The position numbers and the translations under genes are program-made. From Nostoc sp. NMS2 (lineage in GTDB: Bacteria; Cyanobacteriota; Cyanobacteriia; Cyanobacteriales; Nostocaceae), in the NCBI RefSeq assembly GCF_017115105.1, contig NZ_JABXKH010000042.1, positions 124,001-188,000 of the forward strand: DNA of 64,000 bases. The letters are read 5' to 3'. Shown here one piece after another: positions 25,967 to 30,991 of this stretch (position 1 is its first letter; each line of letters opens with the position of its first letter). Under the pieces are notes generated by a model. That model was not told the DNA's origin and ran no database searches. It was given only the letters and a program-made list of their open reading frames with translations.

Positions 25967-27274
25967 ATGGAGCAAAACAGGAATTCAGAGGGTTTAAGGT
26001 CTTCTCAGAATTTTTTGCGATCGCCACTTCTACTTACAATACTTGCATCTCTAGCAATAGGTGGAAGCATTGTTTATGCTGTGATGAAGTTTCAGGCTAC
26101 AGCTAATGAGAAACAAAAAACACCAGTAGCAGTTCAGCCTGTGGTAAAAACAGTCACAGCATTAGGGCGGTTGGAACCAAAGGGAGAGGTAATAAAACTA
26201 TCAGCGCCTTCTTCTACAGAAGGAAATCGAGTAGAGCAACTATTGGTGAAAGAAGGAGATAGCATTAAAGCTGGACAGGTAATTGCAATTATGGATAGTC
26301 GCGATCGGCTCCAAGCGACTTTGGGTGAAGCACAAAAACAAGTTAAAGTTGCCAAATCCCGCCTTAACCAGGTAAAAGCTGGAGCTAAACAGGGAGAACT
26401 TGGAGCTCGTCAAGCTGGCGTAAATCGTCTGCAAGTAGAACTAGAAGGAAATATAAAAACTCAGCAAGCCACAATTAATCGTATACAAGCAGAACTCCTT
26501 GGGCAACAACGCAGCTTGCAAGCAACAGTGGCTCGCGTCGCAGCCGAGAAACGTAATGCCCAAGCTGAGGTGCAGCGCTACGAGACTTTATATAAAGCAG
26601 GAGCAATTTCTAGTCAGGAAGTTGATAGCAGACGTTTAAGTGCAGAAACTTCCACTCAAGCGTTAATTGAAAGCCAAGCCACTCAGACAAGAACTGTGGC
26701 TACCCTACAACAGCAACTTAACGAAGCAAAAGCTAACCAGGAGCAAACACTCGCCAGCTTGCAACAGCAGATTAACGAAGCAAAAGCCAACCTGAATCAA
26801 ACTGCTGAAGTCCGTCCAACAGATATAGCAAATGCACAAGCAGAGATAGAAAGCGCTCAAGCCACCGTAGAGAAAATTAAAGCAGAACTGGCGCAAGCTT
26901 ATGTTGTGGCTCCTAAAGCCGGTCGAATTTTGGAGATTAATACACGAGCCGGAGAAACTGTTGGCGATGAAGGAATTGTGGCTTTAGGTCAAACCGACCA
27001 GATGTATGCAGTAGTAGAAGTCTACCAAAGTGATATTAAGAGAGTGCGTCCGGGACAGGAGGTGCGGGTAAGCAGTGATTCCTTACGCAATGAATTAGAG
27101 GGAAGAGTGGATTGGATTGGTATGCAGGTAAAGCGGCAAAATCTGATCAACGCTGATCCCTCTAGCAATATTGATGCCAGAGTAGTGGAAGTCCATGTGC
27201 AACTGAATAAACTATCTAGTCAAAATGCTTCTAGCTTAACTAATTTGCAAGTCAAGGCGGTAATTGAACTTTAA
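25967..27274 (+). CDS. devB: DevB-like membrane fusion (HlyD family) subunit of ABC exporter
   Basis: Periplasmic adaptor of a tripartite exporter. One N-terminal membrane segment (LLLTILASLAIGGSIVYAVM) is followed by a lipoyl-like half (GNRVEQLLVKEGDSIKAGQV), a long Gln/Ala-rich coiled coil (about residues 115-300) and the second half (AYVVAPKAGRILEINTRAGE) with a beta-barrel domain. In Anabaena, DevBCA exports heterocyst glycolipids with TolC. Heterocystous genomes carry several such operons, and the TetR partner suggests a stress- or compound-responsive paralogue here. First gene of devB-devC-devA. Confidence 0.9.
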   Translation: MEQNRNSEGLRSSQNFLRSPLLLTILASLAIGGSIVYAVMKFQATANEKQKTPVAVQPVVKTVTALGRLEPKGEVIKLSAPSSTEGNRVEQLLVKEGDSIKAGQVIAIMDSRDRLQATLGEAQKQVKVAKSRLNQVKAGAKQGELGARQAGVNRLQVELEGNIKTQQATINRIQAELLGQQRSLQATVARVAAEKRNAQAEVQRYETLYKAGAISSQEVDSRRLSAETSTQALIESQATQTRTVATLQQQLNEAKANQEQTLASLQQQINEAKANLNQTAEVRPTDIANAQAEIESAQATVEKIKAELAQAYVVAPKAGRILEINTRAGETVGDEGIVALGQTDQMYAVVEVYQSDIKRVRPGQEVRVSSDSLRNELEGRVDWIGMQVKRQNLINADPSSNIDARVVEVHVQLNKLSSQNASSLTNLQVKAVIEL

Positions 27275-27284
27275 AGGGAATTGG

Positions 27285-27442
27285 GAATTGGGCATGGAGA
27301 AGAAGCAGGGGAGCAGGGGAGCGGGGGGCAAGGGAGAGAATACAAAATTACATCTTTCTCCTCTGCACCCTTCCCCCTGCCCCTCTTCATCTCCCTCATC
27401 TCCCTCATCTCCCTCATCTCCACCATCTCCCCACTCCCTATT
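27285..27442. repeat. Purine-tract / AT-centre / pyrimidine-tract repeat inside the devBCA operon
   Basis: G-rich repeats (GAAGCAGGGGAGCAGGGGAG), an AT centre (GAATACAAAATTACATC) and a C-rich arm with tandem CTCCCTCAT units. It fills the devB-devC spacer up to the devC start, so a foldable repeat lies within the operon mRNA and could dampen expression of the distal genes. Confidence 0.8.
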
Positions 27443-28615
27443 ATGAAATTAATCGAACAAATGCGGCGGCGAACACCTTTAGGATGGCTGCAACTGAGTC
27501 ATGAAAAAGGTCGTCTTTTGGTGGCATTGTCAGGCATTGCCTTTGCCGATGTTCTGATGTTTATGCAGCTAGGGTTTCAGACTGCTTTGTTTGAAAGTAA
27601 CACAATCCTGCATCGCAGTATGCAGGCTGATATGTTTGTCATCAGCCCCCAAGCACGTAACCTAGCAAATATGTCTAGCTTTACGCGGCGGCGGCTGTAT
27701 CAAGCAATGGATGTACCAGGTGTAAAGTCGGCAGAAGGAATGTATGTCAACATTGTTGATTGGAAAAATCCTCAAACACATCAGAAGACGACAATATTAG
27801 TTATGGGGTTCAATCCCGATCGCCAAGTGTTTTACTTAGCGGATGTCAATCGCCAGCTAGATGCTGTGAAGCTACCAGATACCGTTTTGTTCGATCGCGC
27901 TTCTAGAGGAGATTATAACGAAGCGATCGCTAAAATTGACCAAGGTAAAACTGTCACAACCGAAATAGAACGGCGAACAATTACCATTAGCGGCTTATTT
28001 TCAGTCGGGGCTTCCTTCATAGCAGATGGTACTTTGATCACCAGCGACCAGAACTTTCTGCGACTATTTCCTAGACGAGAAGCCAGCAGTGTCAGTCTTG
28101 GTTTGGTGCAACTGCAACCAGGCTATGACCCAAAACAGATGAAAGCAGCTTTAGAATCTCATTTAGATGATGATGTCAAAGTTTTAACCCAAGCAGAATT
28201 TATCGAATTTGAAATAAATTACTGGAAAACAAATACTGCGATCGGATTTATCTTCAGCCTGGGTGTAGCAATGGGGTTTATGGTGGGCGTGATTATCGTC
28301 TATCAAGTTCTTTCTACAGATGTGAATTCTCATATCAAAGAATACGCTACTTTCAAAGCAATGGGGTATAACAATCTCTACTTATTAGGTGTGGTGCTTG
28401 AAGAGGCGATAATTTTGGCAATCTTGGGCTTTATCCCAGGAGCGATCGCACCTTTAGGACTTTATCATTTAACTCGTAATGCTACTAATTTACCACTTTA
28501 CATGACCGTAGCACGGGCTTTGACAGTATTAACGCTAACTATGATTATGTGTATAATTTCTGGTGCGATCGCAACTCGTAAATTACAGTCCGCCGATCCC
28601 GCAGATATGTTTTAG
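27443..28615 (+). CDS. devC: DevC-like permease of ABC exporter
   Basis: 390 residues, MacB/FtsX-type permease: one N-terminal membrane segment (LLVALSGIAFADVLMFMQLG), a long periplasmic domain, and three C-terminal segments (FIFSLGVAMGFMVGVIIVYQ, AIILAILGFIPGAIAPLGLY, LTLTMIMCIISGAIATRKL). MKLIEQMRRRTPLGWLQLSH is the typical DevC start. The frame is open to 27281, but only through the tract repeat, so ATG 27443 is preferred. It ends 68 bp before devA. Confidence 0.92.
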   Translation: MKLIEQMRRRTPLGWLQLSHEKGRLLVALSGIAFADVLMFMQLGFQTALFESNTILHRSMQADMFVISPQARNLANMSSFTRRRLYQAMDVPGVKSAEGMYVNIVDWKNPQTHQKTTILVMGFNPDRQVFYLADVNRQLDAVKLPDTVLFDRASRGDYNEAIAKIDQGKTVTTEIERRTITISGLFSVGASFIADGTLITSDQNFLRLFPRREASSVSLGLVQLQPGYDPKQMKAALESHLDDDVKVLTQAEFIEFEINYWKTNTAIGFIFSLGVAMGFMVGVIIVYQVLSTDVNSHIKEYATFKAMGYNNLYLLGVVLEEAIILAILGFIPGAIAPLGLYHLTRNATNLPLYMTVARALTVLTLTMIMCIISGAIATRKLQSADPADMF

Positions 28616-28683
28616 AAATTGTCATTGGTCATTTGTCATTGGTCATTTGCAAATGACAACCATCATTAGTAATCAAGCTATTT

Positions 28684-29388
28684 ATGATTAGTCAACCCGT
28701 AATCTCTGTTAAAAATCTTGACCACTACTTCGGTCATGGTCAACTTCGTAAGCAAGTTCTCTTTGATGTCAACCTGGATATTAGCGCTGGTGAAATTATT
28801 ATTATGACTGGGCCTTCTGGTTCTGGAAAAACTACACTTCTCACCTTAGTCGGCGGCTTGCGTTCTGCCCAATCTGGCAGTTTGCAGATATTAGAACAAG
28901 AACTGTGTGGCGCGAACAAAGCCCAACTTACCCAAGCGCGACGTAGTAACGGTTATATTTTCCAAGCGCACAACTTGCATGGTAGCCTAACAGCACTCCA
29001 GAACGTCAGAATGGGTTTGGAGGTGCATAATAATATTTCGCCAGCAGAAATGAAAACTCGGTCAGCCCAAATGTTAGAGGAGGTAGGATTAGGAGAGCGC
29101 CTCAATTATTATCCTGATGACTTATCTGGTGGGCAAAAACAAAGAGTTGCGATCGCTCGTGCGTTGGTCGGTCGTCCTAAAATTGTCTTAGCAGATGAAC
29201 CCACCGCCGCCCTTGATAGTAAATCAGGACGAGATGTGGTCAACCTCATGCAAAAACTAGCTAAAGAACAAGACTGTACCATTCTCTTGGTGACTCATGA
29301 CAACCGCATTCTAGATATTGCCGATCGCATAGTCTACATGGAAGATGGCAAATTAGTAAATGACGGTGCTGTTGTTGCAGCTAGTTAG
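28684..29388 (+). CDS. devA: DevA-like ATP-binding subunit of ABC exporter
   Basis: 234 residues with Walker A GPSGSGKTT, the Q-loop in IFQAHNLH, signature LSGGQKQRVAIARAL, Walker B KIVLADEPTAAL and the switch His in LLVTHDNRI. It closely fits the DevA/LolD/MacB class of exporters. Last gene of the devBCA operon. Confidence 0.95.
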   Translation: MISQPVISVKNLDHYFGHGQLRKQVLFDVNLDISAGEIIIMTGPSGSGKTTLLTLVGGLRSAQSGSLQILEQELCGANKAQLTQARRSNGYIFQAHNLHGSLTALQNVRMGLEVHNNISPAEMKTRSAQMLEEVGLGERLNYYPDDLSGGQKQRVAIARALVGRPKIVLADEPTAALDSKSGRDVVNLMQKLAKEQDCTILLVTHDNRILDIADRIVYMEDGKLVNDGAVVAAS

Positions 29389-29539: not shown

Positions 29540-29624
29540 GGAGAGGTGTCCGAGCGGTTCATGGTGACGCACTCGAAATGCGTTTTGGGGAAACCCAACG
29601 GGGGTTCGAATCCCCCCCTCTCCG
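29540..29624 (+). tRNA. tRNA-Ser (anticodon CGA)
   Basis: 85-base class II tRNA: acceptor GGAGAGG/CCTCTCC, anticodon stem ACGCA/TGCGT with loop CTCGAAA, long variable arm (TTGGGGAAACCCAAC), T-loop TTCGAAT, discriminator G. No encoded CCA. Confidence 0.96.
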
Positions 29625-29795
29625 TTTAAAAATATTCCTAAAAAACTGGACAAACAGATGGTGTTTGGCTTGATAACTGGCACGTATAATTATTTGCAAG
29701 TGAAACGAGCTTATATTTCCGTGACTACTGAGTAAAATATTGCCCAAGAAATACTAAAATATACAGCGATAGCACAGATTTTTGGGATAAACTAA

Positions 29796-29824
29796 TGCCA
29801 TCGTGTGAGGAGTGAACGATGGCA
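29796..29824 (+). promoter_or_regulatory. capA start-site hairpin with loop complementary to the Yfr1 core
   Basis: TGCCATCG (29796-29803) pairs perfectly with CGATGGCA (29817-29824), which contains the capA ATG. The 13-base loop TGTGAGGAGTGAA carries the Shine-Dalgarno. The 11 bases GTGTGAGGAGT (29803-29813) are the exact reverse complement of ACTCCTCACAC, the conserved single-stranded core of the cyanobacterial sRNA Yfr1. Pairing would cover the ribosome site. The structure is visible in the sequence; regulation is inferred. Confidence 0.6.
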
Positions 29825-30991
29825 AATCTCAGCCTGGGGAGAGGGCTTTCATTTAGTTTTATTAGTATCTGTTTATATATGGGTATTAGTATAGGAGTCT
29901 TTATTCGGCTTGGGCAATCACAGCAATTAAACGCTGCTACTACACCCACTGAACCTGTATCATTACCGTTTGCTATTCCTGAACCTGCGGCATTAAAACA
30001 AAAACTGCAAACTTCTTCAGATATTATTACGATCAAAGCCGTTGGAGATATTATTCCCGGCACTAATTTTCCTAACTATAGATTACCCCGGTTTCGAGAT
30101 CAATTATTACCAAAGTCAGTGAGATCCCACTTGCAAGGATCAGATATTTTATTTGGTAACTTTGAAAGTAGCTTAACTAATTATCCTTACACTACCAAAG
30201 ATACTAGTAGGGGACAAGTCTTTGCTTTTCGCTCTCCGCCTGGATATGCTCGGCTATTTGCTGAGGCTGGTTTTAATGTGTTTAATATGGCGAATAACCA
30301 TGCAATGGATTTTGGCCCGGTAGGGTTCAAAGATACAAAGAAAAATCTTGAGGCTGTGGGCATTGCAACATTAGGTCATAAAAATCAAATTCTCTATTTG
30401 AAAGCTAACAATATCCCTGTGGCAATGGTAGGTTTTTCTCCTTATGAAATGTATAATTCCATCCATGATTTAGGAGCAGCCCAAGCACTTGTAGCAGAAG
30501 CTAAAAATAAAGCAAAGATTGTAGTAGTATCGATGCACGCTGGAGCCGAAGGAACGGGGGCACTACATATTAAGAATCAGACAGAGTTTTTTTATGGAGA
30601 AAACCGAGGTAATTCAATCCAGTTTGCTCGAAAAATGATTGATGCGGGTGCAGATTTAGTATTAGGACATGGGCCTCATGTTCCGAGAGCGATGGAAATT
30701 TATAAGGGAAAAATTATTGCCTATTCTTTAGGAAACTTTCTAGGATATCGGACTTTATCTACAAATGCCCAGACAGGTGACTCTATGATTTTAGAAGTTA
30801 AACTCAACTCTCTGGGAGATTTGGTATCAAGTAAAATTATCCCTGTGCGAATGGATAGGCAAGGAATTCCTCAAATTGATCGGTATTTTCAGACTGTGAG
30901 ACTTATGCGTGATTTGAATAATCAAGCTTTTCCCAAAAATCCGGTGAAGATTAATAAGAAGGGGGAAGTTGTTGTACAGAAGAGGAAATAA
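29819..30991 (+). CDS. CapA-family (PGA synthesis-like) protein
   Basis: 390 residues with an N-terminal signal/anchor (LSFSFISICLYMGISIGVFI), then a calcineurin-like metallophosphatase fold of the CapA type. Motifs: KAVGDIIPGTNF (Asp metal ligand), LFGNFESSLTN, FNMANNHAMDFG (the N-N-H-x-x-D motif), VVVSMHAGAE and LVLGHGPHVPRAMEIYKGKI. CapA proteins are tied to poly-gamma-glutamate capsules in Bacillus; in cyanobacteria the substrate is unknown and probably envelope polymer-related. GAGGAG lies 6 bases before the ATG, inside the hairpin described separately. Confidence 0.88.
   Translation: MANLSLGRGLSFSFISICLYMGISIGVFIRLGQSQQLNAATTPTEPVSLPFAIPEPAALKQKLQTSSDIITIKAVGDIIPGTNFPNYRLPRFRDQLLPKSVRSHLQGSDILFGNFESSLTNYPYTTKDTSRGQVFAFRSPPGYARLFAEAGFNVFNMANNHAMDFGPVGFKDTKKNLEAVGIATLGHKNQILYLKANNIPVAMVGFSPYEMYNSIHDLGAAQALVAEAKNKAKIVVVSMHAGAEGTGALHIKNQTEFFYGENRGNSIQFARKMIDAGADLVLGHGPHVPRAMEIYKGKIIAYSLGNFLGYRTLSTNAQTGDSMILEVKLNSLGDLVSSKIIPVRMDRQGIPQIDRYFQTVRLMRDLNNQAFPKNPVKINKKGEVVVQKRK

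Follow-up and report, generated by a model that had tools for sequence, protein, structure and literature searches.

The capA leader of Nostoc sp. NMS2 as a predicted target of the small RNA Yfr1, with a conserved hairpin at the start codon

INTRODUCTION

The small RNA Yfr1 is said to occur in nearly all cyanobacteria (PMC6778093); it has an unpaired undecanucleotide, ACUCCUCACAC (PMC2190773). The closest described system is its regulon in Nostoc sp. PCC 7120, which includes mraY, murC and others: of 11 Nostoc fusions tested, 10 are reported to be lowered by Yfr1 by way of its core, mostly at translation start; the genes concerned are envelope genes, most sites lie a short way ahead of the start, and porins and outer-membrane proteins are the class that it represses (PMC6974561). 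The same report gives PCC 7120 four repeats of a second small RNA, Yfr2, and finds by EMSA that Yfr2 binds Yfr1 in Nostoc (PMC6974561). For Prochlorococcus MED4, Yfr1 is reported to repress a PMM1121 5'UTR fusion 4.7-fold in E. coli, and Yfr2 to relieve that repression (PMC6778093).

Other small RNAs meet ribosome sites in comparable ways. RNAIII of Staphylococcus aureus acts on coa and rot through a C-rich motif that pairs with the G-rich ribosome site, its stem-loops being described as suited to first contact (PMC2837412); RNAIII pairs through C-rich hairpin loops, whereas Yfr1 pairs through a single-stranded linker. The likeness of RNAIII to Yfr1 is only an analogy of mechanism, not one of family. 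In E. coli, OxyS encounters the ribosome site of fhlA within a hairpin; there two loops kiss, and the sequences are unrelated.

The locus described here, the capA leader of Nostoc sp. NMS2, shares with the PCC 7120 regulon both the small RNA and its core; it differs in that the leader sits in a covarying hairpin. It differs from PMM1121 in the gene concerned, and the terms ‘hairpin’ and ‘start codon’ are absent from the main text of that work (PMC6778093). The terms ‘capA’, ‘capsul’ and ‘PGA’ are likewise absent from the main text, as distinct from Table S1, of the Nostoc Yfr1 study (PMC6974561). Among the titles listed, a literature search showed no described work on Yfr1 with capA, on PGA_cap in cyanobacteria or on Nostoc capA. 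Yfr1 has been linked to genes of the cell wall and the outer membrane; capA would extend its regulon to surface-polymer functions. Surface polymers in Nostoc matter for the sheath, for drying and for symbiosis.

THE capA LEADER AND ITS SURROUNDINGS

The window is the whole stretch of DNA that was analysed, 64,000 nucleotides long. Its features around the start of capA are as follows.

29788..29793, + strand: probable -10 promoter element TAAACT (hexamer TAnA(A/C/T)T; related leaders)
29796..29804, + strand: hairpin 5' arm (direct reading and RNAfold; given as 29796-29803 in the first-pass annotation)
29803..29818, + strand: 16-nt perfect complement of host Yfr1, GTGTGAGGAGTGAACG (comparison with the host Yfr1 sequence)
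29805..29815, + strand: hairpin loop GTGAGGAGTGA, holding the Shine-Dalgarno sequence (minimum-free-energy and centroid structures)
29807..29812, + strand: Shine-Dalgarno sequence GAGGAG, 6 nt upstream of ATG (direct reading)
29816..29824, + strand: hairpin 3' arm, including the start codon 29819-29821 (direct reading and RNAfold)
29819..30991, + strand: capA, encoding a 390-aa protein of the PGA_cap capsule-synthesis family (Pfam PF09587)

The first-pass annotation had described an 8-bp stem that includes the start codon and encloses 13 bases with the Shine-Dalgarno sequence. Direct reading agrees: the arms TGCCATCG (29796-29803) and CGATGGCA (29817-29824) stand 13 nt apart, GAGGAG lies within those 13 nt, and the start codon lies within the second arm. 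RNAfold adds a ninth pair, 29804-29816, to give a 9-bp stem and an 11-nt loop. Folded alone, the 29 nt of the hairpin reach -13.4 kcal/mol (z -4.1); with downstream sequence (56 nt from 29795) z is -2.2. For a transcript beginning at 29799 (52 nt), z drops to -0.1, a fold no better than shuffles; the fold therefore stands out only with the entire 5' arm transcribed. The spacing of the -10-like element may permit transcription to start inside that arm. A scan for promoters found no sigma-70-type site; the TAnA(A/C/T)T hexamer is present in 93 of 103 distinct leaders, at 28-34 nt ahead of the start, a count made without a chance control. Just within the coding sequence, at 29831-29847, is a terminator-like hairpin, probably there by chance.

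The capA product matches PF09587 at 6.1e-47 (160.7 bits, cut-off 27) and no NCBIfam model above cut-off; by eye, its sequence has an N-terminal hydrophobic segment. Upstream lies an exporter operon of the DevB-DevC-DevA type (25967-29388; TIGR02971, TIGR01185 and TIGR02982 above cut-off), and a tRNA gene (29540-29624) stands between devA and capA. As tRNA-Ser (CGA) lies upstream of capA in 14 of the 17 related loci scanned, out of 54, the order of tRNA and capA is widely shared. An Rfam scan of the 64-kb window at gathering scores gave three tRNAs and nothing else.

COMPLEMENTARITY TO THE HOST Yfr1

The host genome holds one copy of Yfr1 (RF01116 covariance-model match, 62.2 bits, cut-off 38), adjoining ORFs read as thioredoxin and IMP dehydrogenase. 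It has the ACUCCUCACAC core, and its predicted fold keeps that core unpaired between two hairpins. The linker is complementary to the capA leader over 16 nt without mismatch. The 11-nt complement singled out earlier, GTGTGAGGAGT, is real, occurring once in the window (29803-29813) and in none of 100 shuffles, and proves to be part of this longer match. The first base of the 16-mer (29803) and its last two (29817-29818) are also stem bases, and so these are not independent of the hairpin.

Within 7,571,466 bases there are two perfect 16-mers, one at capA and the other on the antisense strand of Yfr1 itself. With up to three mismatches there are 31 sites (2 perfect, none with one mismatch, 2 with two and 27 with three), against 38 for the reversed-pattern control; as the total is no higher than the control, only the exact match carries weight. 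Pure chance as the source of the match was rejected on this genome-wide count and on its conservation.

The duplex of the capA leader with Yfr1, at -31.6 kcal/mol, ranks first in a sample of 312 ORFs, each 100 aa or longer, from 448 kb (the window and 384 kb of host genome); the next stands at -24.3, and the mean is -12.7 (sd 4.2). For every ORF the start with the strongest duplex was taken, a choice in favour of the background, and the energies leave out accessibility, which favours capA. When both structures are opened, the net co-fold gain is still favourable, at -14.0 kcal/mol. Five other candidate leaders of the host gain -15.8, -22.5, -22.7, -12.9 and -19.4 kcal/mol; the capA gain is weaker than four of these five, which fold less, because the capA hairpin must open.

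A PROPOSED MECHANISM

The earlier prediction that capA is a Yfr1 target thus finds strong computational support in a host that has Yfr1, in the only non-self perfect 16-mer of the genome, in the first rank among 312 ORFs and in conservation beyond the needs of a Shine-Dalgarno sequence. We propose that Yfr1 acts directly on the capA mRNA. The small RNA would pair through its CGUUCACUCCUCACAC stretch with 29803-29818, a duplex that masks the Shine-Dalgarno sequence and ends immediately ahead of the start codon; with that sequence covered, the 30S subunit would be kept off and CapA synthesis would drop. Separately, there would be a selected short hairpin, whose loop holds the Shine-Dalgarno sequence and whose stem holds the AUG, and which most likely throttles initiation by itself. 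The hairpin loop would offer Yfr1 a seed for first contact, and the duplex would then open the top of the stem.

The whole of this, a capA leader targeted directly by Yfr1 and a separate, selected hairpin at the start codon, is given a probability of roughly 0.78. Within it, Yfr1 very probably turns capA down. capA is best read as a predicted new member of the known Yfr1 envelope regulon, the start-codon hairpin being a second layer.

THE HAIRPIN AS A POSSIBLE LAYER OF ITS OWN

The comparison of leaders drew on 134 sequences (29 from the genus, 47 named and 58 from the family), 97 of them distinct over 50 nt; counts were made on distinct leader sequences because some genomes came through two collections. 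Left aside were L009 (for its orientation; its contig is that of L048), L087 and L092 (no N-terminus matched), L093 and L095-L098 (weak non-cyanobacterial relatives) and L157 (no start found).

For the stem, the -10-like hexamer and the ATG served as anchors for the two arms, so that 93 of 103 distinct windows were usable and the 10 without an anchor were omitted. Pairs form in 611 of 744 stem cells, against 571.7 +/- 6.1 when the arms are dealt at random (none of 2000 shuffles reaches this), and in 288 of 400 over the 50 distinct arm combinations, against 271.7 +/- 5.3 (2 of 2000 shuffles); these shuffles ignore relatedness, which a count on a tree partly addresses. In register, 643 of 776 cells pair, against 186-365 with one arm slid by 1-3.

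Nearly all of the covariation signal is held by pair 7 (29802/29818, the latter the base before the ATG), which forms in 36 of the 50 arm combinations against 21.2 +/- 3.1 when shuffled (0 of 2000 reach this), in the states C-G, A-T, T-A, T-G and G-T. On a FastTree tree of 97 sequences this pair has 27 parsimony changes, 18 of them to a paired state and 6 both-sided between pairs. Pair 8 (29803/29817) gives a weaker signal (it forms in 26 of 50, with 23.5 for the shuffles; 21 changes, 7 to a paired state, 3 both-sided); the 5' arm accordingly covaries at 29802 and less at 29803. Pair 6 has no excess (35 of 50 against 35.0), and pairs 1-2 offer nothing beyond composition (59 of 100 against 60.5). 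Selection on the upper stem, then, seems to act at the level of RNA; the same may hold for the lower stem, or that part may be kept as promoter sequence instead.

One perspective starts from the hairpin: it would be the functional element, by occluding the start codon, protecting the 5' end or serving as a protein operator, and the match to Yfr1 would be secondary. The covariation just described and the position of the AUG within the stem speak for this, as does the division of the 104 distinct 62-nt leaders, of which 53 have both TGTGAGG and a stem, 25 a stem only, 10 the motif only and 16 neither (a stem being at least 6 pairs over the ATG, found in a generous search without a chance control). 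Those 25 leaders with a bare stem are what a hairpin of independent function would leave, but the 10 with a bare motif are not, and a genome-unique 16-nt match to one small RNA is needless for any of these roles. We regard a hairpin to which Yfr1 is incidental as possible, if rather doubtful.

The motif-only leaders include L082, L084, L085 and L086 (Fischerella, Pelatocladus and Westiellopsis), which keep GTGTGAGGA though the stem is lost. Compared in this way, stem and motif are separable across the capA family. The first-pass annotation had also called the loop shaped for contact, and this part of it fares less evenly: the upper stem does covary, but stem and motif come apart, and opening the hairpin costs binding energy, so the hairpin is no help to Yfr1 at equilibrium. 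It could help first contact or could control translation by itself. The start-codon hairpin of the capA leader is unusual and conserved.

A wider and tentative extension of direct targeting by Yfr1 would make the capA leader a two-layer switch of ~30 nt near the transcript 5' end: the hairpin would gate the start codon and its loop would dock Yfr1; the synthesis of a capsule-type protein would depend on envelope status (by way of Yfr1 and Yfr2) together with RNA folding; and lineages of the family would differ in having both layers, either one of them or none. Natural leaders with the hairpin only, the motif only, both or neither offer a direct test of the role of a hairpin in small-RNA recognition. 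In three motif-poor leaders (L115, L122 and L128) a stem of 10-11 pairs is possible across the start region; by eye, this stem would extend into the -10-like element.

CONSERVATION OF THE MOTIF AND THE NEEDS OF THE RIBOSOME

A second perspective supposes that the leader has only a strong Shine-Dalgarno sequence: the Yfr1 core resembles an anti-Shine-Dalgarno sequence, and good ribosome sites therefore look complementary to it. GAGGAG is indeed a good Shine-Dalgarno sequence and supplies 6 of the 16 bases; moreover, the shorter 9-mer TGTGAGGAG with at most one mismatch is not enriched in the 64-kb window (6 found, 11.0 expected), nor is the 16-mer at three mismatches in the genome. The bases around GAGGAG, shuffles that preserve it and other starts argue against this account.

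Around the Shine-Dalgarno sequence, conservation within the genus is high. The capA protein has a match in 47 of 53 genomes of the genus; from the 30 loci given, 29 leaders entered the comparison. In ungapped comparison with the window, identity over the leader (-31..-1) is 840/868, or 96.8%, against 78.4% at fourfold sites (2189/2791) and 57.9% further upstream, at -100..-46 (892/1540). TGTGAGG is kept in 27 of the 29 leaders. The four positions of GTGT ahead of the Shine-Dalgarno sequence are kept in 27, 28, 29 and 29 of 29, and those of TGAAC behind it in 28-29; as both are as conserved as the Shine-Dalgarno sequence, conservation exceeds what that sequence needs. Among 41 GAGG-ATG starts (ORFs of at least 100 aa, 448 kb) GTGT precedes two, one of them capA. 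The stemless leaders of Fischerella, Pelatocladus and Westiellopsis, with their GTGTGAGGA, also speak against a bare ribosome site.

Energies over the wider set point the same way. Shuffling all but the Shine-Dalgarno sequence loses ~9 kcal/mol on average: the mean Yfr1 duplex is -22.4 kcal/mol, against -13.6 for the shuffles, in the 74 distinct leaders with a Shine-Dalgarno core (the 10 of 84 without it were left out), and 69 of the 74 beat their own shuffle mean. Plain Shine-Dalgarno bias was found insufficient on these shuffles and on the sample of GAGG starts, and a bare ribosome site is an improbable account of the leader.

Conservation of the complement, which the first-pass annotation had named as a check, is firm in the genus, with the whole 16 nt kept in 20 of 29 leaders, and patchy in the family, where the capA protein has a match in 160 of 217 genomes: TGTGAGG is present in 63 of 104 distinct leaders and absent from 41. 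Among 84 leaders distinct over 38 nt, GTGTGAGG is found in 41 and GTGTGAGGAG in 27. Complementarity to Yfr1 is nearly absent from four leaders (L108, L120, L124 and L156; -1.7 to -4.7 kcal/mol), and in the motif-poor L115, L122 and L128 it is no better than in their shuffles. No seed was found in the fetched stretches of 20 homologues outside the family (47-54% identity), whose true starts are uncertain. On the side of the small RNA, the pairing stretch of Yfr1 is identical in all 59 sequences read, out of 205 genomes with a match.

A PALINDROME IN DNA?

A third perspective takes the inverted repeat to work in DNA, as the binding site of a regulator at the transcription start. Its place directly behind the -10-like element would suit this, and pairs 2 and 3, like pair 6, show no double change on the tree of 97 sequences. 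Yet 29802/29818 reads T-G in 8 of 93 rows, which pairs in RNA and breaks a palindrome in DNA, and the loop is conserved too, so that we hold a DNA operator to be quite unlikely.

OTHER Yfr1-COMPLEMENTARY SITES IN THE GENOME

A capA leader that is chiefly a sponge titrating Yfr1, as Yfr2 might be, is the least credible of these accounts: the leader does hold the longest Yfr1 complement found in the genome, three Cyano-1 (RF01701) copies carry the 10-nt motif, and Yfr2 is reported to bind Yfr1, but Yfr1 is described as rather strongly and steadily expressed (PMC6974561), so that great abundance would be required of one mRNA.

Other sites in the host speak for direct targeting of capA by Yfr1. 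The 10-nt Yfr1 complement GTGTGAGGAG occurs 13 times in the genome, and its reversed control twice. Five of the 13 sites directly precede an ATG, at capA and at four further ORFs, two of which read as porins, one as an outer-membrane protein and one as another exported protein. The remaining sites are the antisense strand of Yfr1, three in a cluster of small-RNA genes and four without clear context. The cluster consists of three adjacent Cyano-1 (RF01701) genes on host contig C162, at ~90,025-90,619 (L042, L043 and L044), each with GTGTGAGGAG. Cyano-1 we take to correspond to Yfr2, and the three small RNAs probably titrate Yfr1.

Two further leaders stand out. On host contig C42, GTTTTAGGAGTGAACG (102758-102773; L239) has two mismatches to the 16-mer and lies directly before a GTG-started ORF of 281 aa that reads like an outer-membrane barrel protein, another candidate Yfr1 target. 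ATGTGAGGAGTGATAG (L230, ~13,580) precedes a porin-like ORF, also a candidate target, with a net gain of -19.4 kcal/mol.
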